Shown here piece after piece: positions 22,013-64,000 of a DNA stretch of 64,000 bases. Source of the DNA: an uncultured Bacteroidales bacterium (GTDB taxonomy: Bacteria; Bacteroidota; Bacteroidia; Bacteroidales; UBA4417); NCBI GenBank assembly GCA_903879715.1, contig CAIRMR010000056.1, positions 1 to 64,000 of the forward strand, written 5' to 3'. The first letter of the stretch is position 1, and each line of letters starts with the position of its first letter. Below the pieces are notes generated by a model. The model searched no databases. It saw only the letters and a list, made by a program, of their open reading frames with translations, and was not told the DNA's origin. The translations under genes and the position numbers were made by a program.

Positions 22013-22384
22013 ATGAATAAATGTATTGCTATTCCTCTGGAAGATGGAGTTTTATGTGCTCATTTCGGGCATTGCCAGCAATTTGCCATTGTTGAAGTTA
22101 AAGACGGTGTAATTACCGATGTTAAAGAAGTAACGCCGCCCGAACATGTGCCGGGGCTTTATCCGCGCTGGGTTGCCCAGTTTGGTGTAACCGATGTTAT
22201 TGCCGGTGGAATGGGGCAACAGGCAATTATGCTTTTCAACGAGCAAAATATCAATGCTTTTGTGGGAGCGCCTACCAAAGCGGCAAAGGAACTGGTTACC
22301 GATTTTATCGCAGGCAATTTACAACTGAGCGCCAATTATTGCAACCACGAGGAAGGGCACGATCACGGACATCAATGTAATTAG
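22013..22384 (+). CDS. NifX/NifB-type protein with His/Cys-rich tail
   Basis: The 123-residue protein has the cofactor-binding fold (CAHFGHCQQF with the DHFGH-like metal turn, VIAGGMGQQAIMLFN, INAFVGAP). Its tail, about 25 residues, ends CNHEEGHDHGHQCN and looks like a metal-binding extension. Homologs are annotated as dinitrogenase iron-molybdenum cofactor-binding proteins and occur in Orp/MinD clusters. It is closest in layout to the protein at 42764, which also ends in a His/Cys tail. The gene lies downstream of a terminator-like hairpin and upstream of repeat-rich DNA. Confidence 0.87.
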   Translation: MNKCIAIPLEDGVLCAHFGHCQQFAIVEVKDGVITDVKEVTPPEHVPGLYPRWVAQFGVTDVIAGGMGQQAIMLFNEQNINAFVGAPTKAAKELVTDFIAGNLQLSANYCNHEEGHDHGHQCN

Positions 22385-22415
22385 GGTTTGTAATCAAACT
22401 TGGTAAATCCTGAAA

Positions 22416-22512
22416 TTTACGAATTACGAATTACGATTTACGAATTACGATTTTTTTCAGCGAGTTATGTATCAATCATACCTCGTCAATCGTACCTCGT
22501 CAATCATAAATA
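22416..22512. repeat. TTACGAATTACGA-type and CCTCGTCAAT-type short tandem repeats
   Basis: The stretch 22416-22453 is built from TTACGAAT and TTACGATT units. It is followed at about 22475-22510 by three CCTCGTCAATC(A/G)TA-type units (the first partial). The TTACGA family recurs at 62812-62860 in the intergenic DNA between the two YeeE/YedE genes. No coding potential is seen. Confidence 0.7.
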
Positions 22513-22563
22513 AAAATATCCCCTGACTTTATTCACAGACACTGATTAAGCATTACTATAACC

Positions 22564-23463
22564 ATGGATAATCGTTGCAAAACCTGTTTTACAAATAATT
22601 ACGACAAGCTTCTGAAAAAAAATCCATTATCGGGATGTGAAGCTTTGGCGTTTTGTGGCTTTTTTTATCGTTTGCTGGATAACGATGATAATAATTCAAG
22701 TCCCGAAATCCAGCGGGTTTTACAACATAAGTTGCGGGAGATGAATGGTGTAGTCGATCCTTATTATAAGGAAAAGCAACAAAGCAACCGGATCGCATTT
22801 AAGTTATACAACGAGTGGAAGCCGAAAGTGCTTGCATCCGACAATCCTTTTGATCTGGCGCTGCGCTTAGCCATTGCCGGAAATATCATGGATTATGGTG
22901 TCGATCATGTGTTTGATGTTCAGAAAACGATTAAAAAATCCTTACACACAGAATTTGCAATCGATCATTCAGCCGCATTAAAGCAGCGTATTGCGAAGGC
23001 TAAAAGCATTTTATACTTAGGCGATAATGCAGGTGAAATTGTGTTTGATAAACTTTTTATTGAGACAATTATGCATCCTAATGTGATTTTTGCCGTAAAA
23101 GATGCGCCTATTCTGAATGATGTCACCTTTAATGTTGCGGAAGATGTTGGTATGAATGAAGTAGCTGATGTTATTTCAAATGGTTACGATGCCTCATCCA
23201 CTTTATTGAATAAATGCAGCAAGGAATTTCTTGATGTGTATCATTCGGCCGACCTGATTATTTCGAAAGGCCAGGGAAACCTGGAGGGATTGATTAACGA
23301 AAAAGACCCGCGAATATTTTTCCTGTTTATGGTGAAATGCGAAGTTATTGCCGAACGGGTTGGGGTCGAAAAAGGAAGTCTGGTAGTTTTTAACCAGGTT
23401 AGTGAGTTAACACATGTGAGGCAAGAATCCTCAAAAACCCTGAAGTCAACCTGGATAAGCTAA
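22564..23463 (+). CDS. DUF89 (ARMT1-like) damage-control phosphatase-type protein
   Basis: The 299-residue protein has an N-terminal CxxC (CKTCF at 5-9), a helical cap and an alpha/beta core with the DUF89 metal-site motif YLGDNAGEIVFDKLF. The distal ISKGQGNLEGL motif is also present. DUF89 members dephosphorylate damaged sugar phosphates or cofactors using divalent metal, and the CxxC-bearing prokaryotic subgroup is frequent beside Fe-S and metal genes. The substrate here is unknown. The gene follows a repeat-rich gap and precedes another repeat array, then the CGGC gene, all on the plus strand. Confidence 0.85.
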   Translation: MDNRCKTCFTNNYDKLLKKNPLSGCEALAFCGFFYRLLDNDDNNSSPEIQRVLQHKLREMNGVVDPYYKEKQQSNRIAFKLYNEWKPKVLASDNPFDLALRLAIAGNIMDYGVDHVFDVQKTIKKSLHTEFAIDHSAALKQRIAKAKSILYLGDNAGEIVFDKLFIETIMHPNVIFAVKDAPILNDVTFNVAEDVGMNEVADVISNGYDASSTLLNKCSKEFLDVYHSADLIISKGQGNLEGLINEKDPRIFFLFMVKCEVIAERVGVEKGSLVVFNQVSELTHVRQESSKTLKSTWIS

Positions 23464-23519
23464 TTGATCTCCAACCAGGTACCATTCAGGAATACACTGC
23501 TGCTTAATATAGAAACAAT

Positions 23520-23612
23520 AGTGTTTAAATCAGCTTCCGGCTCCGGTCTTCCAACTTCCGGCTTCGACTTCCGGCTCCGGTCTTCCTACTCCGGTCTCTC
23601 GACCTTTCATAC
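23520..23612. repeat. CTTCCGGCTCCGGT-type tandem repeat array
   Basis: Units of CTTCCGGCT, CCGGTCTTCC and ACTTCCGGC repeat irregularly through this stretch. It lies upstream of the CGGC gene inside the frame that precedes the true start. It is the complement-type of the GGAAGTC family at 25859-26016. Confidence 0.65.
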
Positions 23613-23637
23613 ATTCAACTCTCCTATCCCAAACAAT

Positions 23638-24081
23638 ATGGAAAAAATCAAAGTTGGAATAATTATCTGCGACCGCTACCACACATGCGCCGGTGGCAAA
23701 TGCTTTCGTTCGTTTGCCAGCCGCGAAGGAGCTTTCTCAGCATACAAAGACCAGGATGCCGAAATAGCGGCTTTCACAACCTGCGGCGGTTGCCCGGGCG
23801 GCAATATTGAATATGCGCCGGAGGAAATGAAGAAAAACGGCGTAACCCATGTTCATTTTGCAACCGGATTTCTGGTTGGATATCCGCCTTGCCCCTACAT
23901 GGACCACTTTGCAAAATTTATCCCTGAAAAATACGGGATGAAAGTCGTTTTCGGAACACATCCGATTCCGCAAAAATACTATCTCACCCATCAAAACCTC
24001 GGTACATGGAACACTCCTGCCCTGCAGGAAGCCATACAGCAAACTCTGACCGACGAAAAGACAAGACTTGATTATGACTGA
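23638..24081 (+). CDS. CGGC domain protein
   Basis: The start is ATG 23638 (MEKIKVGIIICDRYH); an open frame back to 23464 runs through the repeat array and is not expected to be translated. The 147-residue protein carries the CGGC-domain motifs C-x4-C (CAGGKC), TTCGGCPGG and PPCPYMDHF, which look like metal or Fe-S ligands. The function of the family is unknown. It overlaps the first MinD gene by 8 bases, indicating translational coupling with the Orp-like ATPases. Confidence 0.85.
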   Translation: MEKIKVGIIICDRYHTCAGGKCFRSFASREGAFSAYKDQDAEIAAFTTCGGCPGGNIEYAPEEMKKNGVTHVHFATGFLVGYPPCPYMDHFAKFIPEKYGMKVVFGTHPIPQKYYLTHQNLGTWNTPALQEAIQQTLTDEKTRLDYD

Positions 24082-24958
24082 CCTTAAACCTTTAAAAATA
24101 GCTATTGCCAGCGGCAAAGGAGGAACGGGAAAAACAACCCTTTCCACCAACCTTGCAGCATTTATTGCCGAACAGCATGAAGTTGTACTGGTTGATCTGG
24201 ATGTGGAAGAACCCAACTCGGGCTTATTTTTTAAAGGTGAACTTACCCACGAAGAAGACATTTTTAAAATGATTCCCCAGTGGGATGCATCAAAATGTAC
24301 CTTGTGCGGAATTTGCCCGAAATTATGCAGTTACCACGCGGTAATTCAACTCGGGCCATCCATCCTTGTTTTTCCGGAACTGTGCCACAGTTGTTATGCC
24401 TGTTCGGAATTGTGTCCTGTCGATGCTTTGCCGATGATACCTAAAAAAACAGGAACCCTTCGCGATTTTCGGATTGACAAACTAAATTTTGTTGAAAGCC
24501 GCCTTGAAATTGGCGAGGAACAGGCAGTTCAGTTAATATCAAAAACCAAGAAATACGTTGCTGCTACCTATGGCAACGTCAGTATTGCAATTTTTGACTC
24601 ACCGCCCGGCACTTCCTGCCCGGTGATGGAAGCAACCAGGGATGCTGATTTTGTGATCCTTGTAACGGAACCGACTCCTTTTGGCCTTCATGATTTAAGC
24701 TTGGCCGTGGAAACCATGCGGACGCTTAAAAAACCTTTCGGGGTGGTGGTTAACCGCTATGGAATCGGGAATGATGAAGTTATTCATTATTGCCGGGAAG
24801 AAAATATACCTCTATTGGCGAAAATCCCTAACAGCCGCAAAATAGCGGAATTGTATTCATCAGGAAAACTGATGTACCAGGATTTTCCGGAAGTCAGGCA
24901 ATCGTTGTCCGATATACTTGACTATTGCATTAAGGCAGTGAAAGGAGCAAAGGTATGA
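24074..24958 (+). CDS. MinD/Mrp-type P-loop ATPase with inserted ferredoxin domain (first)
   Basis: The start is ATG 24074 (TTG 24068 is also open). The 294-residue protein has a deviant Walker A GKGGTGKTT (14-22), an inserted 2x[4Fe-4S] ferredoxin (CTLCGICPKLC and CHSCYACSELCP), and then the rest of the SIMIBI core (FDSPPGTSCPVMEA, TEPTPFGLHDLSLA). This architecture equals the paired MinD proteins of the Desulfovibrio Orp complex and of many anaerobe clusters, where they are thought to move or insert metal clusters or to act in cell division. It overlaps the second copy by 4 bases (ATGA). Confidence 0.92.
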   Translation: MTDLKPLKIAIASGKGGTGKTTLSTNLAAFIAEQHEVVLVDLDVEEPNSGLFFKGELTHEEDIFKMIPQWDASKCTLCGICPKLCSYHAVIQLGPSILVFPELCHSCYACSELCPVDALPMIPKKTGTLRDFRIDKLNFVESRLEIGEEQAVQLISKTKKYVAATYGNVSIAIFDSPPGTSCPVMEATRDADFVILVTEPTPFGLHDLSLAVETMRTLKKPFGVVVNRYGIGNDEVIHYCREENIPLLAKIPNSRKIAELYSSGKLMYQDFPEVRQSLSDILDYCIKAVKGAKV

Positions 24959-25839
24959 AGGAGATTGTAGTTATATCAGGCAAAGGCGGAACCGGCAAAA
25001 CATCCATTACGGCCTCATTTGCTATGCTGGGTGGCTCCGATGTGGTAGTTGCCGATTGCGATGTGGATGCAGCCGATATGCATTTGCTTATGCAGCCGGA
25101 TTTTAATTTCGCCGAAGATTTTTACAGCGGCGAGGTGGCCTATGTCGATCAGAGCAACTGCATCAGTTGTGGCAAATGCAGGGATGTCTGCCGCTTCGAT
25201 GGCATTTCAGCAAAAAATAATCGGTATGTTGTCGATCCTATCAGTTGCGAAGGCTGTGGCTATTGCGCACGCGTTTGCCCGACTAAAACCATCATTAACA
25301 AGAAACGCCTTGCTGGCAAATGGTTTATTTCGAAAATTAAAACAGGGAGCATCATGGTTCATGCCCGCCTGGGAATTGGTGCCGATAATTCGGGTAAACT
25401 GGTAGCAAAAGTTAAAAACGAAGCCAAAGAAATAGCCCTGGAAGAACACAAAGGTTTTATCCTGGTGGATGGATCGCCAGGCATAGGTTGCCCGGTAGTT
25501 TCATCACTTTCGGGAGCAAATTTCGTGGTTTTGGTTACCGAACCTTCGGTTTCGGGCCTTCATGATTTGAAACGCGTTTATGAACTGGTCAAAAAATTTA
25601 ACATAAAAGCCGGCTGCATTATCAATAAAGCCGACGTTAATCCCGCTAAATGTGCCGAAATCGTTGCGTTTTTAACAGAGAATGATATCGTTCATTTAAC
25701 CGATTTGCCTTACGATGAAAATTTCACCAGGGCAATGGTACTTGGACAAACCATGGTTGAATATGATCATGGAAAATTAAAAGAGCTCCTGGCTGAAAGT
25801 TGGGAGAAAGTGAAGAGACTAGGTTCCGGCACGTATTGA
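24955..25839 (+). CDS. MinD/Mrp-type P-loop ATPase with inserted ferredoxin domain (second)
   Basis: The 294-residue paralog of the upstream protein has Walker A GKGGTGKTS (9-17) and ferredoxin ligands CISCGKCRDVC and CEGCGYCARVCP in the insert. The distal DGSPGIGCPVVSSLS and TEPSVSGLHDLKRV motifs are present. The ATGA overlap with the first copy points to a heteromeric pair made in equal amounts. In such pairs electron transfer between the ferredoxin centres and a NifX/ORP-type partner is proposed, which fits the neighbours. Its stop lies 20 bases before a long heptamer repeat array. Confidence 0.92.
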   Translation: MKEIVVISGKGGTGKTSITASFAMLGGSDVVVADCDVDAADMHLLMQPDFNFAEDFYSGEVAYVDQSNCISCGKCRDVCRFDGISAKNNRYVVDPISCEGCGYCARVCPTKTIINKKRLAGKWFISKIKTGSIMVHARLGIGADNSGKLVAKVKNEAKEIALEEHKGFILVDGSPGIGCPVVSSLSGANFVVLVTEPSVSGLHDLKRVYELVKKFNIKAGCIINKADVNPAKCAEIVAFLTENDIVHLTDLPYDENFTRAMVLGQTMVEYDHGKLKELLAESWEKVKRLGSGTY

Positions 25840-25858
25840 GTGGAATAGATTTTAAAAG

Positions 25859-26156
25859 GTTGGAAGACGGAAGTCAGAAGTCGGAAGTCAGAAGTCAGGA
25901 GTCGGGAGTCGGAAGACGGAAGTCAGAAGTCAGGAGTCGGAAGTCGGAAGATGGAAGTCAGAAGTCGGGAGTCAGAAGTCAGAAGTCGGAAGATGGGATA
26001 TGGAAGTCGGAAGACGGTGCTAACTGGAGATTTAAATCTAATTATGAAAAATGAACTGAAGAAAATTAATTGGACCACTAAATTTCATTCTAATGGAATG
26101 AACGAAGTTCTCAGGATGACTCCCGTCTTCCGACTTCCCACTTCCGACCTCTTCAC
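25859..26156. repeat. GGAAGTC heptamer array with an inverted arm
   Basis: From 25859 to 26016 the DNA is almost only degenerate heptamers of the form (G/A)GAAGTC, with variants GGAGTCG and GGAAGAC. At 26127-26156 the reverse complement appears (CGTCTTCCGACTTCCC and TTCCGACCTC), so the array can fold back. Open frames through it encode Ser-Glu-Val-Arg repeats and are artefacts. The same family appears at 63480-63503 and in single units at 61367 and 61495. Confidence 0.8.
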
Positions 26157-26213
26157 TTCGCCAGCTAACTTAATAATATCACCCCAAAAGGAACAAATTA
26201 AAACTAAATACAC

Positions 26214-26552
26214 ATGAAAATCGCATTCACATCCGAAGGAACAAGCTGGGATTCATTAATTGACCCACGTTTCGGCAGAACAGAAAACATTGTACTCTAC
26301 AATGAAGAAAGCAAAGAGTTAACAACAGTTGACAACAGTGCAGTTAAAAATGACGCGCATGGCGCAGGAACGGCAACCGCTCAAAAAATATTCGAGTTGA
26401 AACCCGATGTGCTTATTACCGGGAACGGCCCCGGCGAAAACGCGGCAAAGGCATTGAAACATATCAAGATGCGGATATTTGCCGATGCCAACAACCTGAC
26501 TCTCAGGCAGGCTTACAATAATTATTTGAGTGGAAATCTTAAAGAAGTATAG
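26214..26552 (+). CDS. NifX/NifB-type Fe-Mo cofactor-binding domain protein
   Basis: The 112-residue single-domain protein shows MKIAFTSEGTSWDSL, the metal-turn segment DPRFGRTENI, GAGTATAQKIFE and VLITGNGPGENA. It is the most canonical of the four NifX-type proteins here and lacks a His/Cys tail. It is 5 bases ahead of the ferredoxin-like gene, and the pair probably belongs to the same functional set as the MinD ATPases upstream, although a 374-base repeat region separates them. Confidence 0.88.
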   Translation: MKIAFTSEGTSWDSLIDPRFGRTENIVLYNEESKELTTVDNSAVKNDAHGAGTATAQKIFELKPDVLITGNGPGENAAKALKHIKMRIFADANNLTLRQAYNNYLSGNLKEV

Positions 26553-29198: not shown

Positions 29199-29567
29199 AT
29201 GGCTGAAAATGAAAAACTAGTGATTATTTGCACTACAGGACCTGAAAACCAGGAGAAAGCTACACTTCCATTCGTACTGGCAACAGCGGCACAAACGGTT
29301 GATGCGGAAGTTGTTGTGATACTACAAGCATCAGCAGTATTACTAGCAAAAAAAGGTACTGCTGAAAATGTGAATGCACCCGGTTTAATGCCGCTCAAAA
29401 AACTGATGGACACTTTTATTGAATTAGGTGGCAGGCTGTTACTGTGTTCGCCTTGTATAAAAGAGCGGTTTATCAAAGAAGAAGAATTATTTGAAGGATC
29501 AAAACTGATTGCAGCGGGAACAGTTGTCGACGAGGTATTATCAGCAAAAGCAGTAGTAACTTACTAA
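29199..29567 (+). CDS. DsrE-family sulfur carrier/sulfurtransferase
   Basis: The 122-residue single-domain DsrE-like protein has VIICTTGPENQEKATLPF at the N-terminus and the active-site loop LLLCSPCIKER with C83 and C86, where DsrE binds persulfide. DsrE and its homologs pass sulfane sulfur between TusA, DsrC-type or rhodanese partners. No DsrF/DsrH partners are next to it, so it may work as a homo-oligomer. It is the first gene of the sulfur operon, 26 bases before dsrE2, and lies directly behind the operator. Confidence 0.85.
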   Translation: MAENEKLVIICTTGPENQEKATLPFVLATAAQTVDAEVVVILQASAVLLAKKGTAENVNAPGLMPLKKLMDTFIELGGRLLLCSPCIKERFIKEEELFEGSKLIAAGTVVDEVLSAKAVVTY

Positions 29568-29593
29568 ATGAATTTAAATTACATCTTATCATA

Positions 29594-30160
29594 ATGCAAC
29601 AAGAACCAGAATCACTCATTATCAAACTACAGGAACAAATTGATACTTTACAGGCAAAAGTGTCAACGCTTGAAAATTCCAGAAAAGATCAATTATCAAT
29701 TGCTATTGTATCCGGTGATCTGGATAAAATTATGGCAGCCATGATTATTTCGTTAGCCGCTGCAACCATGGATACCAAGGTGAAATTATTCTTTTCATTT
29801 TGGGCGCTTTCAGCACTCAGGTCTAAAAACATAAGAGGGAAAGGAAAGAATTTTATCTCCAGGATGTTTGGTATAATGTTGCCACGCGGAAAAAATCGCC
29901 TGAAACTTTCAACTATGAATATGGCAGGAGCAGGCCCACTTATGATTAAGCATTTAATGAAAAAACAAGGAGTGCTTTGTATTGACCAGATGTTTAAAGA
30001 TGCCGGGGAACTAGGGATTGAAATTGTGGTTTGCGAAATGTCGATGAACTTGATGGGCTTTAAAAAAGAAGAAATGATGGATTATCCTCACCTGAGTTAC
30101 GCGGGCGCTGTAACTTTTGTTTGCGACGCGAATGAAAGCAGTATGCAACTGTTTATTTAA
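29594..30160 (+). CDS. dsrE2: DsrE2-type sulfur carrier (DsrE/DsrF/DrsH-like)
   Basis: The 188-residue protein has an N-terminal coiled coil (about 5-35) and a DsrE2 domain with the characteristic VVCEMSMNLMG motif (C147), a second Cys at 129 (VLCID) and a hydrophobic stretch near 45-80. DsrE2 proteins typically accompany TusA and sHdr in sulfur oxidisers and take part in persulfide relay; a membrane association is likely. It sits between DsrE and TusA, matching that arrangement. Similar genes are sometimes annotated as peroxiredoxin-family, but no peroxidatic motif is present. Confidence 0.85.
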   Translation: MQQEPESLIIKLQEQIDTLQAKVSTLENSRKDQLSIAIVSGDLDKIMAAMIISLAAATMDTKVKLFFSFWALSALRSKNIRGKGKNFISRMFGIMLPRGKNRLKLSTMNMAGAGPLMIKHLMKKQGVLCIDQMFKDAGELGIEIVVCEMSMNLMGFKKEEMMDYPHLSYAGAVTFVCDANESSMQLFI

Positions 30161-30162
30161 GG

Positions 30163-30236
30163 GATTTGGGATTAGGGGTTAGGGAAGGGAAAGAACCAAG
30201 GTCCAAATTTCAAGGTCCAAATTCCAAAGTCCAAAC
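30163..30236. repeat. Low-complexity repeats between dsrE2 and tusA
   Basis: A GGGATTTGGGATTAGGGG-type stretch (about 30161-30191) is followed by three copies of AAGGTCCAAATTTC-type 14-mers (about 30197-30236). Such text-like arrays recur in other gaps of the window with different unit sequences. Confidence 0.6.
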
Positions 30237-30284
30237 GCAGCACAATGCACTTTTAAGAAAATTATAAACCTAAAAATAAAGATC

Positions 30285-30536
30285 ATGACAACCGAAGAAT
30301 TGAAAAATGTAGTAGTAGCAAAATCAGTTGATGCCCGAGGAACAGCTTGTCCCGGACCGCTTTTGGAAGCAAAAAAAGCAATTGGAACCATCAAAGCAGG
30401 TGATATAATGGAAATATTATCAGCCGACGAAGGAACTAAAAGTGATATTCCAAAATGGTGTGGCAAACAAGGCCATGAATACCTGGGAGCCGTTGACGAA
30501 AACGGGTACTTCAAAGTTTATATGAAGAAGAAATAA
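30285..30536 (+). CDS. tusA: TusA-family sulfurtransferase
   Basis: The 83-residue protein has the CPGP motif at 22-25 with the acceptor C22 (DARGTACPGP). TusA-like proteins carry sulfur as persulfide on this Cys and act as a hub between rhodanese, DsrE and downstream enzymes. The second Cys in KWCGKQG near 59 is common in the family. Placed directly before MvhD/Qmo genes, it probably presents sulfane sulfur to the Hdr-like complex, as in sulfur oxidisers with TusA-DsrE2-sHdr, although the role in tRNA thiolation cannot be excluded by sequence. Confidence 0.88.
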   Translation: MTTEELKNVVVAKSVDARGTACPGPLLEAKKAIGTIKAGDIMEILSADEGTKSDIPKWCGKQGHEYLGAVDENGYFKVYMKKK

Positions 30537-30545
30537 GCAATCCTC

Positions 30546-30953
30546 ATGGCTGAAAAAACCAGGAAAAGCGCTAAAATATTAGTCTTTTCGACAGAAAAAA
30601 TAAGTGATCCCGCTATTGATATGGCGGGATTACTTAAATTACATTATCCTCCAACAGTATATACAATCACTGTTCCCTGTTCGAGCGGTATAAAATCGAG
30701 ATGGATTTTACACGCTTACGAAAAAGGCTTCGACGGCGTTTTTATTGCTGCCGACGGAAGCGATTGCGTATTTGGCGAATCCTGTACCGAAAAAACCGGG
30801 GAGTTGGTTGGCCGGACAATGGAATTGATGAAGCAAAAAGGAATTGAGCCGGCACGCTTAAAAATGGCCGCCATTTGTTCGGTGTGCAGCGAATCGTTTG
30901 TTAAACAGGTGAAAAGCTTTAATGAATATCTACTAAAAACTTCAAACTCGTAA
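30546..30953 (+). CDS. MvhD/FlpD-family 2Fe-2S protein (hydrogenase iron-sulfur subunit-type)
   Basis: The 135-residue protein matches the FlpD/MvhD family, which links electron donors to HdrA. Conserved Cys are at 45, 74, 80, 111 and 114 (VPCSSG, DCVFGESC, CSVCSE), though the typical GDCHY motif is changed to SDCVFGESC. In sulfate reducers the same domain forms the C-terminus of QmoB; here it is a separate gene, translationally coupled (TAATG) to the QmoA/HdrA gene. It should be part of the complex. No hydrogenase gene is nearby. Confidence 0.83.
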   Translation: MAEKTRKSAKILVFSTEKISDPAIDMAGLLKLHYPPTVYTITVPCSSGIKSRWILHAYEKGFDGVFIAADGSDCVFGESCTEKTGELVGRTMELMKQKGIEPARLKMAAICSVCSESFVKQVKSFNEYLLKTSNS

Positions 30954-32260
30954 TGATGAGTGGACAATCCAAAAATATTTCGTTTGATGCACTGGTTGTA
31001 GGAGGCGGCATTGCCGGAGGCGAAGCAGCATTAAATTTAGCTTCTACAGGTTTTAAAGTTTTGCTGGTCGAAAAGGAATTATCCATAGGCGGGAAAATGA
31101 TCATGCTGAGCAAGGTTTTTCCAACCCTGGATTGCGCCGCATGTATAACCACTCCTAAAGTTTCTGAAATTTCGCGGCATCCGAATATTACAATTTATAC
31201 CGGCAGCGAAGTTGGTAATATCAATAAAATAGCTGAAAATAATTTCGAGGCTACCATCATCCGGAAACCGCGTTACGTGGTAATTGAAGATTGTACAGCT
31301 TGCCAGCTATGCGAACAGGCTTGCCCGGTGAGTGTCCCCGATCAATACCAGTACAACCTGGTTGGGCGAAAAGCTGCCTTTATACCGTTTAGCATTGCCA
31401 GCCCTAAAGCTGCAGCCATTGATATCGACAATTGCATTTTATGCGGTGCCTGCGAAAAAGTTTGTCCTACCAATTGTATCGATTTTACGCAGGAAACCGA
31501 AGAAATTCAGATCAGCGTTAAAACTGTTATCCTCGCCACAGGGTTCAAATTATTCGATCCTCTTTTAATGCCGCGTTATGGTTTTGGCCTTTTTAAAAAT
31601 GTGATCACCTCCATGCAAATGGAACGTGAGCTGGCTCCAACACGCCCGTTCAATACAGTTTTACGTCCTGGCGACGGGAAAGTTCCTGATAAAATAGCGT
31701 ATGTTCTCTGCACCGGCTCAAGGGATGCTTCCATTGGAAATCCGATCTGCTCGCAAATATGCTGCATGTATTCCATCAAACAGTCGCAATTGCTTATGGG
31801 TGCTTTGCCTATGGCTGATGTAACCATTTATTACCTGAACATCCGGTCGTTTGGTAAAGGTTTCGAAGAGTTTTACCAGCAGGCTAAAGGCATGGGCGTG
31901 AATTTTGTAAAAGGCAAAATTGGCAAAATCCGGGAAACAGAAAACGGAAACGGAAATCTTATTTTGCGTTACGAGGATATAAATGAAGGTATTGTTAAAG
32001 AAGCGGAACACGACATGGTAATCCTTTCGGTAGGAGTTCTTCCAAACCAGGATGCCTCGGGGTTTTTCCCAAAAGAGGAATTAAAACTCGACCCGTATAA
32101 ATTCATCTACCAGGCCGATTCGCTGATAAGTCCAGCCCGTACAAGCATCGATGGAGTATTTGTTGCAGGAACGGCTTCGGGCCCTATGGATATCCCCGAT
32201 TCAATTCTTTCAGCCGGTTCAGCATCCGCCGAAGCAATAAGTTATTTAATACAGGAATAA
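30953..32260 (+). CDS. qmoA: QmoA/HdrA-like FAD-Fe-S protein
   Basis: The 435-residue protein has an FAD-binding GGGIAG motif (17-22), a CAAC pair (C61/C64) with PTLDC, two [4Fe-4S] motifs C114/117/120/124 and C161/164/167/171, and an HdrA-type CSQICC stretch in the thioredoxin-reductase-like part. Length and order match QmoA of sulfate reducers and short HdrA. It lacks the N-terminal HdrA extension that the next gene has. The protein should form the flavin core of a soluble-to-quinone electron transfer complex. Flanking TAATG overlaps couple it to MvhD and HdrA. Confidence 0.85.
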   Translation: MMSGQSKNISFDALVVGGGIAGGEAALNLASTGFKVLLVEKELSIGGKMIMLSKVFPTLDCAACITTPKVSEISRHPNITIYTGSEVGNINKIAENNFEATIIRKPRYVVIEDCTACQLCEQACPVSVPDQYQYNLVGRKAAFIPFSIASPKAAAIDIDNCILCGACEKVCPTNCIDFTQETEEIQISVKTVILATGFKLFDPLLMPRYGFGLFKNVITSMQMERELAPTRPFNTVLRPGDGKVPDKIAYVLCTGSRDASIGNPICSQICCMYSIKQSQLLMGALPMADVTIYYLNIRSFGKGFEEFYQQAKGMGVNFVKGKIGKIRETENGNGNLILRYEDINEGIVKEAEHDMVILSVGVLPNQDASGFFPKEELKLDPYKFIYQADSLISPARTSIDGVFVAGTASGPMDIPDSILSAGSASAEAISYLIQE

Positions 32261-34191
32261 TGGAAAAGAAAATAGGTGTTTATGTCTGCCATTGTGGCGG
32301 TAACATTTCCGATTACGTAGATGTTGAAAAAGTTCGCCAGGCTATTGAGGATGAAGGTGGAGTTATGCTAGCCAAAACCACCATGTTTGCCTGTTCGGAC
32401 TCGAACCAGAAAGATATGGTTGACGATATTAAAAAAAATGATCTCAATGGCGTTGTTGTTGCTTCCTGTTCTCCAAAACTCCACCTCACCACTTTTGGGA
32501 ATGTGAGCGAGAGAGCCGGCCTGAATAAATATAATTATGTTCATGCCAATATACGCGAGCAGGTTTCGTGGGCTCACTCCGACGATAAAGCCGGGGCAAC
32601 CGAAAAAGCAATACATATTGTAAGAGCAGCCATAGCCAAAGCACGTTTTACCGAATCGCTAGAACCCAATAAGATAGAAGCTCAAAAGGCTGTAGCTATA
32701 ATTGGCAGCGGTGTGGCAGGAATGAAGGCGGCCATTGAATTATCAAATATGGATTGCCCCGTGTACATCATCGAACGCGAATTCTTTATTGGCGGCAGGG
32801 TTTCGCAATGGGGAGCCATGTTTACCACCAACGAAACCGGGAAAGAAGTAGTTACACGCTTGTATAACGATATGATTAGGCGTCCGAATGTAACTGTATT
32901 TACCGGCGCCGAGGTAATTACCAATGTAGGAAGTATCGGGGATTTTAAATTAAAAGTTAAAATTACGCCCCGCTATGTGAAAGAAAAATGCGACCGGGGT
33001 AAATTGCAGCAAGCCATTGATGCTTGTCCTGTTGTGGTTCCTGACGAATTCAATTTCAATATTACCAGTCGTAAAGCCATATACCACAACTTCCCAAGCG
33101 AATATCCGCAAGCCGCCGTTATTGACATGAAAAGCTGCACTCGCTGTGGTAAATGCGAATCCATCTGCGATAATATTGATTTCTCCCAAAAAGAAGAAAT
33201 TCTTGATATCCATGTAGGTTCTGTGCTTATGGCCACCGGTTTCGACCCATACACACCTCATGACGGCGAGTTTGGCTACAACGAATTTGCGAATGTGGTC
33301 ACATTGCCTCAGTTCAAACGCATGATTGAATTGAATGAGAATAAGCTGATGCACCAAGGCAAAGAAGTCAAAAATATTGCTTATATCTATTGCGTTGGCA
33401 GCCGGCAGGAAGAAGGAGGAAATACATATTGCTCGCGTTACTGCTGCACATCAGCTATTCACGCATCCCTGCTGGTGAAGAAGAAATATCCAAGCGTTTA
33501 CAACTATCATTTCAACCGGGGCATCCGGACCTATGGAAAACAGGAATCACTTTATTATGATTCATCTGCTCAGGGCGATATATACCTACAGGCCTACGAA
33601 GACGCATTGCCGGTTGTGACCTGGAATGGCTCAAATTCCATCGTTAAAATAAACGATATCTTAACAGGTGGACGAGAGATGGAAGTGGAAGCCGATTTAG
33701 TGGTTTTAGTAACAGGGATGGTTCCCCGTGCGGAGAATTCGGTGGGAACGCTGTTTAAACTGCCCAAAGGCCGCGATAAGTTTTTCAACGAGATTCATAT
33801 GAAACTTCGCCCGGTTGAAACTTTCATTGATGGAGTTACAATTGCCGGCGCATGCCAGGGGCCGAAAAATATTATGGAATCAGTTAACTCAGCTCTTTCT
33901 GCAGCAACAAAATCTTTTTCGTATGTAAGCAAAGGCGAATTGGAAACGGAACCTATTGTTGCTGTAATTGATCCTGTACTTTGTACATGGTGCGATGCCT
34001 GCTCAAAGGCGTGCCCATTCGATGCTATCAGTATGACAAAGGACGGAACAAAATCTATAGCACTGATCAATAACTCAGTTTGCAAAGGCTGCGGCATGTG
34101 TTTGCCGGTTTGCCCCACAGATGCTATCGAACTGATTGCTTATTCGAACAATGAAATTGAAAGCATGATTGATGCATTAGCACATGATTAG
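32260..34191 (+). CDS. HdrA-like/QmoB-like long FAD-Fe-S protein
   Basis: The 643-residue protein has the HdrA N-terminal domain (GVYVCHCGGNISDYVD, C10/C12), FAD motif IIGSGVAG near 147-154 and CSRYCC near 391-396, then a C-terminal 2x[4Fe-4S] ferredoxin (C575/578/581/585 and C608/611/614/618). A single [4Fe-4S] motif is at C293/296/299/303. The inserted cluster of canonical HdrA (CTGCGxC...CP) is reduced to C244 and C256, so at least one centre is probably missing. It should act with QmoA and MvhD as QmoB does, but the MvhD part is on a separate gene. Confidence 0.85.
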   Translation: MEKKIGVYVCHCGGNISDYVDVEKVRQAIEDEGGVMLAKTTMFACSDSNQKDMVDDIKKNDLNGVVVASCSPKLHLTTFGNVSERAGLNKYNYVHANIREQVSWAHSDDKAGATEKAIHIVRAAIAKARFTESLEPNKIEAQKAVAIIGSGVAGMKAAIELSNMDCPVYIIEREFFIGGRVSQWGAMFTTNETGKEVVTRLYNDMIRRPNVTVFTGAEVITNVGSIGDFKLKVKITPRYVKEKCDRGKLQQAIDACPVVVPDEFNFNITSRKAIYHNFPSEYPQAAVIDMKSCTRCGKCESICDNIDFSQKEEILDIHVGSVLMATGFDPYTPHDGEFGYNEFANVVTLPQFKRMIELNENKLMHQGKEVKNIAYIYCVGSRQEEGGNTYCSRYCCTSAIHASLLVKKKYPSVYNYHFNRGIRTYGKQESLYYDSSAQGDIYLQAYEDALPVVTWNGSNSIVKINDILTGGREMEVEADLVVLVTGMVPRAENSVGTLFKLPKGRDKFFNEIHMKLRPVETFIDGVTIAGACQGPKNIMESVNSALSAATKSFSYVSKGELETEPIVAVIDPVLCTWCDACSKACPFDAISMTKDGTKSIALINNSVCKGCGMCLPVCPTDAIELIAYSNNEIESMIDALAHD

Positions 34192-34224
34192 AGTACGAAT
34201 CTGAACAAAGAAACAAGACATATC

Positions 34225-34503
34225 ATGGAAATCGAAAAAGGAAAGACTTTCAAATGCCTCCGCGATAAGCGGGAGGTTCCGCAGGTGGTAAAAGATCAGC
34301 TGAAGGAATTTAACAGGATAAAAAAAGGAATGTTGGATGCTTTGAAAGAAACTGATCAAACTATTGATCAGTTAACTCAAAAACTGAATATGCCCAAACC
34401 TGAAGTGGTTTATTATTTAATGTCACTGATAAAATACGGCTTTGTACAAACGGGTGAGGTGGACGATATGGACGAATATTTCACTTATAAACTGAAAAAG
34501 TAA
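34225..34503 (+). CDS. Winged-helix protein within the Hdr/Qmo operon
   Basis: The 92-residue protein has a helix-turn-helix core (QTIDQLTQKLNMPKPEVVY, LMSLIKYGFVQTGEVDD) that looks like a winged helix, as in ArsR/MarR-type DNA-binding or scaffolding modules. No Cys cluster surrounds it, but one Cys (KCLRDK, C10) could be redox-sensitive. It lies between HdrA and QmoC genes and overlaps the latter by one base (TAATG), so it may be a co-regulator or a small subunit. Function is unknown. Confidence 0.7.
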   Translation: MEIEKGKTFKCLRDKREVPQVVKDQLKEFNRIKKGMLDALKETDQTIDQLTQKLNMPKPEVVYYLMSLIKYGFVQTGEVDDMDEYFTYKLKK

Positions 34504-35555
34504 TGGCAAACATTGATCCAAAATTTGGAGAAGCGTTAAAAGAATATGGTGGAGTAAATTTTAATGCATGTTATAATTGTGGTAACTGCACGGCTGTGTG
34601 TTCACTATCCACACCCGAAGATTCGTTCCCGCGTGAGATGGTCCGCTTAAGTGTCCTGGGATTGCAGGATGATTTAAAATCGTCGTTAAAACCCTGGCTA
34701 TGTTACTACTGTGGCGAATGCACCACGCACTGCCCGCAAACAGCAAATCCCGGCGAACTGATGATGTCGCTCAGGCGCTGGCTTACCTCGCAATACGACT
34801 GGACAGGTTTATCCGGATTGCTGTATAAATCGCTGCCGTTAAGCATCATAGCTTTCGTACTCACTACCATTGGTGTAATTGCCTTTGCCGCTTACGAATC
34901 CTTTAACCTTGAAACAATTATACATTTTGGCCATTATTTTGAAATGATTGCCATCGGGGCTGTTTTTACTTTCATACTGCTACCCAATATTATCCGTATG
35001 TGGTGGTTTGTAATTCTGAAACCCAAAATTCAGGTTTCCTTTTCCACTTACGTGAAAAGCATCCGGGAGTTAATTGTACACATGTTTACACAAAAACGTT
35101 CGTTAGGCTGTGATGATAACCAGGTTCGGTGGTTCGAACACCTTATTCTTGTTTTCGGGTACCTGGCATTGCTCTTTACTACGGTATTTCTGGATTGGTT
35201 TTCGTCGCAAAATCTTTTTGTAATCATACTGGGCTATGTCGAAAGTGTTGTCATATTTGTAGTCACCTTCGATTTTATGGGCAGCAGGATTAAAAAGAAC
35301 AAAGAAATCAATAAATTTTCGCAGCCTTCCGACTGGTTCTTTGTTATCTGGCTCTTCCTGATGGGACTTACGGCATTTATTGTCCGCGCTTTTATTGATC
35401 TCGATATCCTGGAAACTAATTCATGGATGTATCTTCTCCATCTCACCGTCCTGGTGCAATGGGCCCTAATTATTGTTCCTTTCGGGAAATGGACTCACTT
35501 TTTATACCGTTCGTTTGCCATGTATTTTGACAAGGTGAAAAAGATGAGTGCCTGA
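34503..35555 (+). CDS. qmoC: QmoC-like HdrC/membrane cytochrome b fusion
   Basis: The 350-residue protein has an N-terminal HdrC-type dicluster ferredoxin (C23/26/29/33 and C67/70/73/77), followed by about six membrane helices (about 110-335) with His residues suitable for heme b (HFGHYFEM, WFEHLILVFG, LLHLTVLVQW). This is the QmoC layout: electrons pass between the flavo-Fe-S subunits and the menaquinone pool. HdrB with its CCG domain is absent. It closes the operon; the next gene is convergent. Confidence 0.87.
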   Translation: MANIDPKFGEALKEYGGVNFNACYNCGNCTAVCSLSTPEDSFPREMVRLSVLGLQDDLKSSLKPWLCYYCGECTTHCPQTANPGELMMSLRRWLTSQYDWTGLSGLLYKSLPLSIIAFVLTTIGVIAFAAYESFNLETIIHFGHYFEMIAIGAVFTFILLPNIIRMWWFVILKPKIQVSFSTYVKSIRELIVHMFTQKRSLGCDDNQVRWFEHLILVFGYLALLFTTVFLDWFSSQNLFVIILGYVESVVIFVVTFDFMGSRIKKNKEINKFSQPSDWFFVIWLFLMGLTAFIVRAFIDLDILETNSWMYLLHLTVLVQWALIIVPFGKWTHFLYRSFAMYFDKVKKMSA

Positions 35556-42763: not shown

Positions 42764-43156
42764 TCAGGAGTGTATCTGGTTATTGCACTGATGTTCACCG
42801 CCCTGGTGCTGTTCATGCTGGTGGCAGCTTACACCGCTATCGGTCAGGTTGCCTGAAACATATTCTTTTACTGTTTCAGCAGCATTTCCCGAACAACCTC
42901 TTACTACATCTATTCCCCATTGATTCAGAACATTTATAGCTCCGCCACCAATACCACCGGCCAGCATAACTGTAACTCCCTGGTTTGCCAGTACCCCGGC
43001 AATATTTGATTTGCAGCCGCAGCCCTGCTCAGATTTAATAGTTTGTACATCAATGATTTCGTTTTTCTCGGAAATGGTATAAACGCCATAAAATTCACAA
43101 TGGCCGAAATGATCATCGATTTGGTTTTCTTTTGTTACTGGAATTGCAATCTTCAT
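42764..43156 (-). CDS. NifX/NifB-type protein with His/Cys tail
   Basis: The 130-residue protein has the cofactor-binding fold: MKIAIPVTKENQIDDHFGHC, the DDHFGH metal turn, GCGCKSN, and AGGIGGGAINVLNQWGI. The C-terminal tail is CHQHEQHQGGEHQC, a likely metal-binding extension like the one at 22013. It is divergent from osmC, with the ATGAACCTGCGTTCAT operator between them. The absence of nitrogenase points to the ORP-like class. It is the fourth NifX-type gene in the window. Confidence 0.87.
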   Translation of the reverse strand: MKIAIPVTKENQIDDHFGHCEFYGVYTISEKNEIIDVQTIKSEQGCGCKSNIAGVLANQGVTVMLAGGIGGGAINVLNQWGIDVVRGCSGNAAETVKEYVSGNLTDSGVSCHQHEQHQGGEHQCNNQIHS

Positions 43157-60656: not shown

Positions 60657-61298
60657 TTAACAACCCCCACCTGATGATGCTTCCTTTTTAACCGGAGTAA
60701 CTTTCTTTTTCTCACTCTTAACTGGTTGTGCAGCGTCTTTTCCTGTTTTAGCCGGGGCTGAAATTGCTTTCAAAGCAGCAGTATCAATCAATGGTGTTTC
60801 ACTTAGCTGCGGCAAGAGCCTGGTAAGCGAATCGGAGTTTGCTATATCAAGTTGTACATAATTGCCGGTAAATAGCAGAACATTTTTAAATCCGGTTTGC
60901 CTGAGTATCAGCCATGGACCATTTGCCTGTTGTTGGGTTTCACCATACAGAACTGCGGTTTGCCCTGCTTTTTCTAGATCCAGAAAAGTAGCCTTGCTCT
61001 TTTTTGCAAACAATTCGCGAACCTGAATATTGACTGCATTTTTAATGTGTCCCCGGTCAAAAGCTATTGAATTGCGAACATCGATAAATACAGTTTTACC
61101 GGAACTATCTTTCATTAAAGCAGTTGCTTGTACTGGTGTAATGACTGAGGCAGGATCGTTAAGTAGGGCGAGGCTTTCAGCAGGAGTTAAGGAATATTTA
61201 ATATCGGGTCTTCTCAGGGTGACCAATCCAATAATTATTACCAGCACAATTCCGATAACTGCTATCGTAAGCCGGTTGGTTTTATTAAGTTCGTCCAT
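60657..61298 (-). CDS. Rhodanese-like protein without active Cys, ending in SSGGGC
   Basis: The 213-residue protein has an N-terminal membrane helix (about 10-27) and a rhodanese fold (about 50-165) with FIDVRNSIAFDRGHIKNAVN, but the active loop reads LYGETQQQANG, with Gly in place of the catalytic Cys. A Lys/Pro/Ala-rich linker (about 180-207) follows and the chain ends SSGGGC. C213 is the only Cys in the protein. A flexible arm with a terminal Cys looks like a swinging sulfur carrier. It is downstream of a paralog with the same ending. Topology of the anchor cannot be fixed by charge alone. Confidence 0.8.
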   Translation of the reverse strand: MDELNKTNRLTIAVIGIVLVIIIGLVTLRRPDIKYSLTPAESLALLNDPASVITPVQATALMKDSSGKTVFIDVRNSIAFDRGHIKNAVNIQVRELFAKKSKATFLDLEKAGQTAVLYGETQQQANGPWLILRQTGFKNVLLFTGNYVQLDIANSDSLTRLLPQLSETPLIDTAALKAISAPAKTGKDAAQPVKSEKKKVTPVKKEASSGGGC

Positions 61299-61547
61299 TG
61301 TATTCTTTGTTTTGCATGTATAATCGAAGGTCTATTTTAGCAGGTCGAAATAAGTTGTCAGAAGTCAGGAGTTTCGGTAAATACTATTTTCGCCAATGTA
61401 TCACACATTCTGGCAATTAACATTCTTCTTAATTATTCTGAATCTGATTTTATTGTGTAGAATTTTGCATTACGCTATTGTATACTTCGGTCATCCGACT
61501 TCCGATTTTTTACTCTCAATTCCAATACAATCTTAGTCGAATATTTA

Positions 61548-62168
61548 TTAACAACCGCCACCCGATGCAGCTCCGGATGTTTTCTTGACGACGGTAACTT
61601 TTTGTTTCTCCACAACTTTTGGGGCTGCTGCCATTTCGGGGCTGCCAAAGAAATGCTGACATGCTGCAACTCTGAACTGATAAAGGTCCATTGCTTCGGT
61701 GGGTGCAGTTTCGGCGGGTTTTTCAGCTTTTACAATGGTGTTAAACCATTTATTTACTCCACCCTGCATAACATAAATTCTTTGTAAGCCCATTCGTTTG
61801 CAGATAATCCAGGTTTGGTCGGAAGTAACGTCGGCATTGGAATAAAAAACTTTATCCATTTCTTTTTGATTCAGTATTTCCTGTGCTGAAGCTGAAAGAA
61901 GAGAATCTGCGGGAATATTTATTGCTCCGGGAATAGAAAAAGCTTTGAACTGTGATTCATATCTCACGTCAATCAGCATCAGCGCCGGGTCTTTTTTTAC
62001 AAGCCTGTCGGTGATATCATCCGTGCTCAGGAACCTTGATGGATCATCAATAGCCGCAAGCAGAAGTTCGGGTTGAGTTTGTTTGGCAGTATCCTTTGCA
62101 GGCATGAAGAGTATCCCTACTCCAAGTGCTATTATTATGCCTGCCAGTAGCATATATCTTTTGTTCAT
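61548..62168 (-). CDS. Rhodanese-like protein without active Cys, ending in ASGGGC
   Basis: The 206-residue protein has an N-terminal anchor (MNKRYMLLAG then a helix to about 22; a basic N-terminus suggests periplasmic location) and a rhodanese fold (about 45-145) with LIDVRYESQFKAFSIPGAIN and the loop FYSNADVTSDQTW, where the catalytic Cys is absent. Other Cys are C123 and C170. A VEKQKVTVVKKTSG linker precedes the final ASGGGC, C206. It starts 11 bases after the second YeeE/YedE gene and is followed by the other tailed protein 249 bases on, so all belong to one operon. Confidence 0.82.
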   Translation of the reverse strand: MNKRYMLLAGIIIALGVGILFMPAKDTAKQTQPELLLAAIDDPSRFLSTDDITDRLVKKDPALMLIDVRYESQFKAFSIPGAINIPADSLLSASAQEILNQKEMDKVFYSNADVTSDQTWIICKRMGLQRIYVMQGGVNKWFNTIVKAEKPAETAPTEAMDLYQFRVAACQHFFGSPEMAAAPKVVEKQKVTVVKKTSGAASGGGC

Positions 62169-62179
62169 AGTCTTATTTA

Positions 62180-62773
62180 TTAATACTCAACTTTTTTAAC
62201 CTTCTTTTCAACAAATGCAGCTCCATAAAACATCCCGACTGCTGCAACGATCAGCAGAAATGCAAAAACGGTTTCGCGCATGCCCAGGAGGTCGTAAATC
62301 TTGGCTGCTCCCATATTCCCACTGTTGTATAATCCTTGAAATAGCGGATAAAGTTCCGAAAAAATAAATACACCAATAAACAAGCCTCCACTGAAAACCA
62401 TAGCATCGATCTTACCAATGGCAATACCTGTAAAACTGGTTCCGGGGCAAAAGCCTCCCAGGGCAAAACCAAATCCCATTATAATACCGCCAATAATAGC
62501 CGACATTACATAATATGGATTGATGTATAGCATGGACATATCCATCCAGCCCATGTAATCGAAATAAAAGATACCGGTCATTGCAGTTATTGCTGCTGTG
62601 AAAAACACCCGTAACACCACAAAATCATAACCAAAAAAGGTCCCCATGATTTTGCGTGAAGAAGAAAACCCGGAGGCTTCGAGAGCAAAGCCGAAACCGA
62701 CTCCTAGTAGCAGTGCGATTACATTGTTCCAGGTTTCGGGTATAACACCCATGGGAATAAGAGGTCCTATCAT
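62180..62773 (-). CDS. YeeE/YedE half-size sulfur-compound permease (second)
   Basis: The 197-residue membrane protein has the GFALGGFCPGT motif with C109, equivalent to the Cys relay in thiosulfate transporter TsuA (YeeE). About five to six helices are seen, half of TsuA length, as in the PmpA/PmpB type in which two half permeases work together. Transport of thiosulfate or a sulfane-sulfur compound is inferred. It lies between the other half permease and the tailed rhodanese-like gene. Confidence 0.85.
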   Translation of the reverse strand: MIGPLIPMGVIPETWNNVIALLLGVGFGFALEASGFSSSRKIMGTFFGYDFVVLRVFFTAAITAMTGIFYFDYMGWMDMSMLYINPYYVMSAIIGGIIMGFGFALGGFCPGTSFTGIAIGKIDAMVFSGGLFIGVFIFSELYPLFQGLYNSGNMGAAKIYDLLGMRETVFAFLLIVAAVGMFYGAAFVEKKVKKVEY

Positions 62774-62807: not shown

Positions 62808-62908
62808 TTCTATTTACGATTTTTGATTTACGATTTACGAATAACGATTAACGAATAACGTTAGTTTTTCTTCCAAAATCTCAAATCATGGATCCTTGTT
62901 CTTAAATC
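62808..62908. repeat. TTACGATTTACGA repeats and ATCCTTGTTCTTAAATC element
   Basis: From 62812 to 62860 the DNA repeats TTTACGAT and AATAACGATTAACG units, the same family as 22416. At 62892-62908 it holds ATCCTTGTTCTTAAATC, identical to 3613-3629. It lies between the two permease genes and reaches the stop of the first one. Confidence 0.65.
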
Positions 62909-63429
62909 CACAATTTCTTAAAAATCCAGGAAAACAGGTAAGCCGAGCCGAAAATAGCCATCATAGTAATTATCCCTGAAGCCGAAAGCACAGCCATACC
63001 GCTTAAAGCAGCACCACTGGTGCAACCCCTTGCAAACTGGGAGCCCACTCCGAAAAGAATTCCTCCGGCCAAAGCAGCGATAAGCCTGGTTTTGCCTGTA
63101 ATTTTTGGTGAATGTTCAACTTTGAATTTCAGCCTTCCGTAGAGTGTTCCCGAAAGAAAGCCTCCGACAATTACACCTATTACTTCGAAAACCAGCCAGT
63201 TGCTCATTGGGCTGGCGTCGTCGCTCAGGAACTTACTGTAGTATTTATTTTCTTCAGCATGAACCGGGGCTACTGTATGAACAGCTGATACTACAGAGCT
63301 TTTAACGGCCCCACTTGCGCCCAGTCCACGACCCGTAATATAATATGTGCCGAAAAGCACCAGTCCCAATAATACCCCTCCCAGGTAAGGGTTGATGTAA
63401 AAGGTACCGTCTCGTTTCATTTTTTCCAT
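62902..63429 (-). CDS. YeeE/YedE half-size sulfur-compound permease (first)
   Basis: I choose ATG 63429 (MEKMKRDGTF); ATG 63462 adds 11 residues. The 175-residue membrane protein has the GRGLGASGA motif near the start and SQFARGCTSGAALSG with C136, both features of YeeE/YedE (TsuA) transporters that pass thiosulfate through a Cys pathway. A loop of about 40 residues separates the first and second helices. Together with the second half-size gene it should form one transporter. It follows the NrfD gene in the same operon direction. Confidence 0.85.
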   Translation of the reverse strand: MEKMKRDGTFYINPYLGGVLLGLVLFGTYYITGRGLGASGAVKSSVVSAVHTVAPVHAEENKYYSKFLSDDASPMSNWLVFEVIGVIVGGFLSGTLYGRLKFKVEHSPKITGKTRLIAALAGGILFGVGSQFARGCTSGAALSGMAVLSASGIITMMAIFGSAYLFSWIFKKLWI

Positions 63430-63477
63430 GATAACTATTTTTGTAATGAACGTATTTTGCATTTAATGTTGAGTGAA

Positions 63478-63640
63478 GGCTGGAAGTCGGAAGTCGGAAG
63501 TCAGATCGTAAAAGTATTTCAATTTCTCTTATTCAAACTCTCCTTCTCCTTATCCTTCCTTGTCGCCCTTCGCTTAGTCGCCCCTCACCTTGTCTTCCCA
63601 CTCTCGAATCCCTAACTCCTAAGCCCTAATCCCCAACCCC
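63478..63640. repeat. GGAAGTC heptamers and TCCTTCTCC/CCCTAATCC repeats
   Basis: GGAAGTC heptamers at 63482-63502 are followed by low-complexity TCCTTATCCTTCC and CCTAACTCCTAAGCCCTAATC-type units up to the NrfD stop codon. They belong to the same mixture of text-like arrays as the gaps at 46972 and 25859. Confidence 0.65.
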
Positions 63641-64000
63641 TAGTACAAATATCTCGTAATCTGCCCCGCCTCAACCATAATAAACCTGAATATCAGTCCG
63701 CCAAGCAGAACTAAAATAGCCGGAATTACAATAGGCACTTTGAACCCGATAAGTTCGAGAACTTCCAGTACGGCTGGTAGCAGAAGACCCAAAAGGATTA
63801 CAAATACAAAGAATGGAACTGTAAATTCTCCGCCCAGGAACAAGTTTGCAGCGTCGATCTGTACCTGTGACCCGGCCAGGAATCCCATAATCATATGTAC
63901 GATGAAGAACAATTCAACCGCTATAAACAACAGGTCGAGGCGGCCGATAAGCCGGCGTTCTTCATGGTTTTTGCTCATAAGGATAATACTGGCGGCACCC
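63640..64000 (-). CDS. nrfD: NrfD/PsrC-type membrane subunit, C-terminal part (runs off the right edge)
   Basis: The frame is open from the window end to the stop at 63640 (about 119 residues visible). It contains the last helices of an NrfD/PsrC quinone-interacting protein (LLFIAVELFFIVHMIMGFL and GGLIFRFIMVEAGQ). NrfD-type subunits link periplasmic Mo or Fe-S oxidoreductases (polysulfide, thiosulfate, tetrathionate reductases and others) to quinones. The catalytic and Fe-S genes must lie to the right. An internal ATG at 63978 is not the true start. Being first in the operon with YeeE/YedE and the tailed rhodaneses suggests a sulfur-compound reductase. Confidence 0.8.
   Translation of the reverse strand, partial: GAASIILMSKNHEERRLIGRLDLLFIAVELFFIVHMIMGFLAGSQVQIDAANLFLGGEFTVPFFVFVILLGLLLPAVLEVLELIGFKVPIVIPAILVLLGGLIFRFIMVEAGQITRYLY

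Follow-up and report, generated by a model that had tools for sequence, protein, structure and literature searches.

Pseudo-rhodaneses with a conserved Gly-Cys tail adjoin a split YeeE transporter in Bacteroidota: candidate extracytoplasmic sulfur carriers

Organization of the locus

The window analyzed here is a stretch of 64,000 nucleotides from a contig of an uncultured Bacteroidales bacterium. An operon on its minus strand is transcribed in the order PhsA-like molybdoenzyme, 4Fe-4S subunit, NrfD-like subunit, YeeE1, YeeE2, R2 and R1; the first two genes and most of the NrfD-like gene are located on the same contig past the window edge (Table 1). The molybdoenzyme has a Tat-like N-terminus, and its best-scoring NCBIfam family is PhsA, at 484 bits, which is below the cut-off of 694. 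A preliminary description of this DNA had reported two rhodanese-like ORFs with identical SGGGC ends, and both were recovered exactly as described.

Table 1. Features of the operon within the window
Feature	Position	Strand	Description
R1	60657..61298	-	R2 paralogue, membrane-anchored pseudo-rhodanese, 213 aa, SGGGC end; PF00581 50 bits
SGGGC tail of R1	60660..60674	-	Cys213 codon 60660-60662
R2	61548..62168	-	Membrane-anchored pseudo-rhodanese, 206 aa, SGGGC end; PF00581 55 bits
SGGGC tail of R2	61551..61565	-	Cys206 codon 61551-61553
YeeE2	62180..62773	-	N-terminal half of split YeeE/TsuA-type transporter; PF04143 positions 10-150, 46.9 bits (cut-off 27)
YeeE2 Cys109	62447-62449 (codon)	-	Invariant, 156/156 homologues
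YeeE1	62902..63462	-	C-terminal half of split transporter; PF04143 positions 177-308, 78.2 bits (cut-off 27)
YeeE1 Cys147 in RGCTSG	63022-63024 (codon)	-	Invariant, 154/154 homologues
NrfD/PsrC-like membrane subunit	63640..64000	-	Cut by window edge; NrfD 35.8 bits on in-window part

YeeE1 (186 aa) and YeeE2 (197 aa) are the only PF04143 matches in the genome. The YeeE match to the NCBIfam TsuA family reaches 46 bits against a cut-off of 400, which places the pair outside that family. The pair has just two invariant Cys columns, one in each half, as opposed to the three Cys of TsuA (C22, C91 and C293), whose relay and numbering have been described (PMC11073785). Because of the transporter halves that hold them, C147 of YeeE1 and C109 of YeeE2 should match C293 (the outer, first cysteine) and C91 (the second) of TsuA, respectively. 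No conserved counterpart of the third TsuA cysteine, C22, was found in YeeE2.

Structural features of R2 and R1

R2 and R1 both exceed the cut-off of the PF00581 Rhodanese profile (22.2 bits), and Rhodanese is the only domain above cut-off in a Pfam scan, which detected neither a SoxY nor a DsrC domain. An AlphaFold2 model of R2, based on 63 relatives, has a mean pLDDT of 90.6 and consists of a helix at residues 3-20 that is compatible with a membrane anchor, a rhodanese domain modelled at pLDDT above 95, and, at residues 181-206, a disordered arm with pLDDT of about 60-70. The top Foldseek matches of this model are rhodaneses. The final 30 residues of R2 homologues are basic, with a mean net charge of +3.9, and the last rhodanese Gly-Gly motif of R2 relatives is separated from the tail Cys by 60-84 residues (median 70). 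The membrane anchor and the charged flexible linker that had been noted earlier are thus borne out.

Alignment to solved rhodaneses places the catalytic Cys position at S110/N111 in R2 and at G119/E120 in R1, and no Cys is present there, so that both proteins lack the active-loop Cys by which an active rhodanese or sulfurtransferase is recognized. The loss is complete in the R2 family, in which a nearby Cys occurs in only 4 of 165 sequences. The R1 family is less uniform, as the active-loop column holds Cys in 8 of about 78 relatives; the earlier claim of a rhodanese fold without the active-loop Cys therefore applies to R2 and R1 themselves, not to every relative of R1. The fold, the anchor, the loss of the active Cys and the disordered arm of R2 and R1 are established computationally.

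C213 is the sole Cys of R1, as had been stated. R2 contains C123 and C170 besides the tip, neither of which is conserved in relatives: Cys occupies column 123 in 35 of 165 sequences, and there is no Cys-rich column around position 170. C170 was considered as an alternative sulfur site of R2 and was ruled out on this ground. Of the 123 tailed unfused R2 homologues, 77 have no Cys other than that of the tail.

Conservation of the Gly-Cys tail

Homologues were drawn from the order, the phylum, GTDB contigs and about 110 further stretches, giving about 160 loci, and a protein was counted as tailed when its sequence ended in GC or in GC plus one further residue. By this definition, and in a sample whose loci are partly non-independent and which mostly leaves out weakly matching genomes, the terminal GC is kept in 160 of 164 complete R2 homologues, in 33 of 35 YeeE2-R2 fusions, in 69 of 77 R1 homologues (five more have Cys within the last six residues) and in 27 of 35 homologues of R3, a third rhodanese of these operons. 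The preliminary description had proposed a profile search, with a tail that is not conserved, or homologues with the same neighbours and no terminal Cys, counting against its idea; the idea survived the search, which found the tail retained in nearly all R2 and in most R1 homologues. As a control, the complete ORFs of the same loci other than R1 and R2 were examined, and 8 of 1,174 had a terminal GC. All eight are exported rhodanese lipoproteins from R1/R2 operons, which leaves 0 of 1,166 as the actual background and rules out background composition as the origin of the tail. The window's genome has eight other rhodanese ORFs, none with a GC tail.

In an alignment of 63 R2 sequences extending to 20% identity, the only invariant residues are D67 and R69 of the rhodanese DxR motif, the fold glycine G137, and G205 and C206 at the tip. 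GGGC is invariant among close relatives, and the endings of other relatives are GGC, GGCG and also GGCGG. The search profile included the tail; many matches aligned just to position 170-190, and those that aligned only to the pre-tail positions also end in GGC or EGC. In a second batch of 15 loci, picked mainly for weak or odd YeeE/R2 matches, every YeeE2-type fusion ends in GGC, GGCS, GGLCS or GGLCG. Judging from this pattern of conservation, the tail is under strong selection.

Several apparent exceptions were inspected. The R2 of locus L141 was rejected as an untailed case, as the gene is frameshifted and the ending KKAVQGGCS, followed by a stop, is intact in another frame. The candidate at L149 adjoins a separate tailed R2 and looks like a misfiled R1. 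The R2 proteins at L148 and L159 appear truly untailed. In the R1 genes of four loci (L132 5618-6235, L137 2452-3066, L139 4323-4937 and L144 5673-6347), the tail reads DE(D/E/N)CPDLN, not GGC, and R2 and R3 of these operons retain GGCG or GGCS despite the altered R1 tail.

R3, a tailed rhodanese with an intact catalytic loop

R3 is an exported lipoprotein that often bears the same tail as R1 and R2. A lipoprotein-type signal was recognized by a simple pattern in 28 of 35 R3 homologues, the catalytic loop Cys is kept in 33, and the GC tail is absent in 8. Since R3 carries lipoprotein signals and shares its tail with the R1 and R2 of its own operon, the most likely site of action of the tail is outside the cytoplasmic membrane. 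The retained catalytic loop Cys makes R3 a plausible candidate for the loader of the tail Cys. R3 is absent from the operon in the window's genome. Elsewhere the window encodes two rhodaneses that look exported, have intact loops and lack a GC tail (11909-12928 and 14179-15057); the region 11909-15057 comprises a lipoprotein rhodanese and a two-domain rhodanese around a porin-like gene. It is possible that these two proteins load R1 and R2.

Matched tails within operons

The tails of R2 and R1 resemble each other within an operon, even though the two rhodanese domains are but distant relatives. Over the nine positions before the Gly-Cys, R2 and R1 of one locus share 5.8 residues on average, compared with 2.7 for R2 and R1 of different loci (69 loci), and the best of 2,000 permutations reached 3.2. 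When each 50%-identity cluster is represented by a single locus (36 loci), the averages become 6.1 within and 2.6 between, a difference attained by none of 10,000 permutations, whereas the rhodanese domains of R2 and R1 in this set are hardly more alike within loci than between them. The residue after the Cys, if any, is mostly the same in R2 and R1 of one locus. Examples of identical tails are KKKKQAAAGGCE, found three times in L100, and PVQHTRVVEGGC, found twice in L088.

Recent gene conversion was considered as the source of the matched tails and rejected. At shared tail residues the codon is the same in 52% of cases within a locus and in 42% when different loci are compared, and the excess of similarity within loci vanishes 32-37 residues upstream. 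The drift of the codons and the fading of the excess upstream point to selection at the protein level, and paralogous tails that stay alike within an operon while their codons have drifted suggest a common partner. The preliminary interpretation had overlooked both this matching within operons and the third, catalytically intact tailed rhodanese; its emphasis on the tail and on YeeE as a possible partner is supported.

Constant and variable neighbours

Wherever the contig extends far enough, YeeE1 and YeeE2 adjoin the tailed proteins, and 35 homologues, of which 33 are tailed, are YeeE2-R2 fusions. The reductase is variable: next to a tailed R2 beside YeeE, a PhsA/NrfD-type module is present at 71 loci, a multihaem module at 20, and neither at 10, where no reductase occurs in at least 3.5 kb upstream. 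In the reductase-free loci examined, only R2 is tailed, and the three paralogues are thus not equivalent. Because YeeE is always adjacent and often fused to R2, with the reductase variable or absent, the split YeeE/TsuA-type transporter is the most likely partner of the tail. The YeeE/YedE pair had already been suggested in this role, and its standing as the only constant neighbour supports the suggestion.

At L078 (10151-12390) and L197-L205, where YeeE2 and R2 are fused, the place of PhsA/NrfD upstream of the YeeE pair is taken by a cytochrome of the octahaem tetrathionate reductase family and a cytochrome b561-like gene. A Sulfuricella plasmid carries YeeE halves of the same family with no rhodanese adjacent, from which it follows that the arm is not essential to every YeeE system. 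A second plasmid match outside Bacteroidota is a high-GC Gemmatirosa locus.

Comparison with known sulfur-transfer systems

DsrC and TusE use a mobile C-terminal Cys in a sulfur relay, and the tail had been compared with them. The comparison stands with regard to the mobile C-terminal Cys. However, DsrC and TusE are cytoplasmic and have another fold, whereas R1 and R2 give no DsrC match and most likely lie outside the cytoplasmic membrane, a location indicated by their N-terminal membrane helix and by the exported R3 that shares the tail. Sud of Wolinella is a periplasmic rhodanese serving Psr. R1 and R2 resemble it as extracytoplasmic sulfur carriers, in this case putative, with a rhodanese fold near a Psr/Phs-like reductase. 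Sud uses its active-site Cys, whereas in R1 and R2 the tail Cys would replace the lost one, and their constant neighbour is YeeE, not Psr.

SoxY carries sulfur on the Cys of a GGCGG arm (PMC6067878), and a handover from the SoxY Cys to SoxT, a YeeE relative, is regarded as conceivable and chemically uncertain (PMC11582611). As in SoxYZ/SoxT, a presumed carrier outside the cytoplasm, bearing a Gly-Cys arm at its C-terminus, is linked with a YeeE-family transporter, and some relatives end exactly in GGCGG (L203). R2 and R1 have a mobile Gly-flanked Cys arm of the SoxY type, sharing the kind of motif and not the family. In contrast to SoxY, their scaffold is a membrane-anchored rhodanese fold, found in Bacteroidota beside reductase-type modules. 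No Sox gene was noticed among the neighbours read, a reading in which SoxZ, SoxAX and SoxB lay outside the search. As the proteins are most likely extracytoplasmic and their relatives end in GGC, GGCG or GGCGG, the GGCGG arm of SoxY feeding SoxT is, by analogy, the best parallel, ahead of DsrC/TusE.

On the transporter side, TsuA-TsuB (YeeE-YeeD) likewise pairs the cysteine relay of a YeeE-family protein with a sulfur carrier dedicated to it. This carrier, TsuB, is of the TusA type and serves the exit in the cytoplasm, whereas R2 and R1 are proposed to serve the entry on the opposite side of the membrane, and here YeeE is split into two genes. PmpA/PmpB also distribute the YeeE function over two small membrane proteins with one invariant Cys each. 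The Pmp proteins, described as about 130 aa (PMC11582611), differ from the longer YeeE1 and YeeE2, which are accompanied by tailed pseudo-rhodaneses.

A further likeness is to the YTD cluster (yedE-tusA-dsrE), which joins YeeE/YedE with TusA and DsrE. At L203 (3503-6243) and L207 (620-5134), a full-length YedE adjoins small rhodanese lipoproteins with GGCG or GGCGG tails and DsrE-type genes, and TusA was seen in L207. One of these rhodaneses has the active-loop Cys and its neighbour lacks it, the same division of labour as above. The part of the YTD description consulted (PMC12998232) lists conserved hypothetical proteins and does not mention a tailed rhodanese.

Proposed mechanism and alternatives

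The reading that we favour, at somewhat better than even confidence, is that R2 and R1 are extracytoplasmic sulfur carriers that hand sulfur through the tail Cys to the split YeeE. One N-terminal helix would anchor them to the cytoplasmic membrane on its outer side, and the rhodanese fold without catalytic Cys would serve as scaffold and docking body. A disordered, mostly basic arm, whose Gly-Gly-Cys tip lies about 70 residues beyond the last rhodanese motif, would carry the terminal Cys, which may be loaded with sulfane sulfur as a persulfide. The sulfur would come from the R3 lipoprotein where present, or directly from thiosulfate or polysulfide on which the neighbouring reductase acts. The arm would then swing the sulfur to the periplasmic entry of YeeE1/YeeE2, and it would pass on into the cytoplasm to TusA/DsrE-type carriers. 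We infer the persulfide chemistry, the direction of flow, the docking on YeeE and the role of R3 as loader; in an AlphaFold2 model of a YeeE2-R2 fusion, the confidence of the membrane part is too low to reveal docking.

The main rival is a handover to the reductase, in which the tails would carry polysulfide, persulfide or thiosulfonate to an extracytoplasmic enzyme of the PhsA/NrfD or octahaem type, as Sud does for Psr, with YeeE secondary. PhsA/NrfD-type (71 loci) and octahaem-type (20 loci) modules do stand beside tailed proteins, and the catalytic subunit next to the window is nearest to the thiosulfate reductase PhsA, though below its cut-off. The 10 reductase-free loci, where a tailed R2 and the YeeE pair persist, count against it; moreover, unrelated reductases alternate while YeeE is constant, and in the loci read R2 is fused to YeeE2 and never to a reductase. 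We consider this explanation unlikely. A structural or regulatory Cys, forming disulfides among R1, R2 and R3 or to YeeE, or sitting in a lipidated or otherwise modified tail that carries no sulfur, would also account for the matching of tails within operons, through mutual pairing or one modifying enzyme, and would suit the mostly basic character of the tails beside the terminal Cys (+3.9 on average over the last 30 residues of R2). Yet a lone R2 keeps its tail where no tailed R1 or R3 exists, so that tail-tail pairing is unneeded; no modifying-enzyme gene accompanies the operon in the loci read, and the setting is one of sulfur metabolism throughout. This reading is about as unlikely as the handover to the reductase.

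That the tail Cys acts as a redox or sulfane-sulfur sensor or gate for YeeE, comparable with SoxT1B signalling, and not as a carrier of mass flow, is more improbable still. A YeeE-type protein in Hyphomicrobium does signal (PMC11582611), and a catalytically dead rhodanese domain would fit such a role, but an operon with two or three tailed proteins, one of which has its catalytic loop intact, suits flux better, and the operons read contain no constant regulator gene. Finally, the near-identity of paralogous tails within many operons might suggest a neutral relic or compositional accident spread via gene conversion. This idea has practically no standing and is refuted by the conservation data: the codons of shared residues differ about half of the time, the terminal G and C are invariant down to 20% identity while the linker varies, and none of the 1,166 other ORFs has the tail.

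Implications of a proposed sulfur handover to YeeE

A broader form of the sulfur-carrier reading, to which we give slightly less than an even chance, is that interchangeable GGC-tipped arms on two or three rhodanese bodies, one active and two dead, pass protein-bound persulfide into a split YeeE relay that is widespread in Bacteroidota. If this is true, what is imported would be a sulfur atom that one protein hands to the next and not a free ion, which amounts to group translocation of sulfur. It bears on whether YeeE/SoxT-type transporters move free thiosulfate or take sulfur from a carrier protein; the species transported by SoxT has been said to need more investigation (2024; PMC11582611). 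As the proposed carrier adjoins or is fused with the transporter, the tip is one mutable residue and the tails are matched, the handover is directly testable. It would also assign a role to many dead rhodaneses that family searches know only by the general rhodanese domain. The rhodanese fold, YeeE and Gly-Cys arms are known parts, and the dead rhodanese as a probable arm-bearing partner of a split YeeE appears to be new, since no description of this combination or of tailed pseudo-rhodaneses was found in the open literature (open-licence PMC papers).

Other features of the window

A cytoplasmic sulfur-trafficking cluster at 29199-35555 encodes DsrE, DsrE_2, TusA (the only TusA of the genome) and a small DsrE-like ORF, together with HdrA/QmoA-like and HdrC-like redox genes. 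The cluster shares its contig with the YeeE operon and may plausibly receive the imported sulfur. Several small NifX/dinitrogenase-cofactor-like proteins, some with ends that by eye are rich in His and Cys, are encoded at 20881-26552 and 42764-43156, near ParA/Mrp-type ATPases also recognized by eye.
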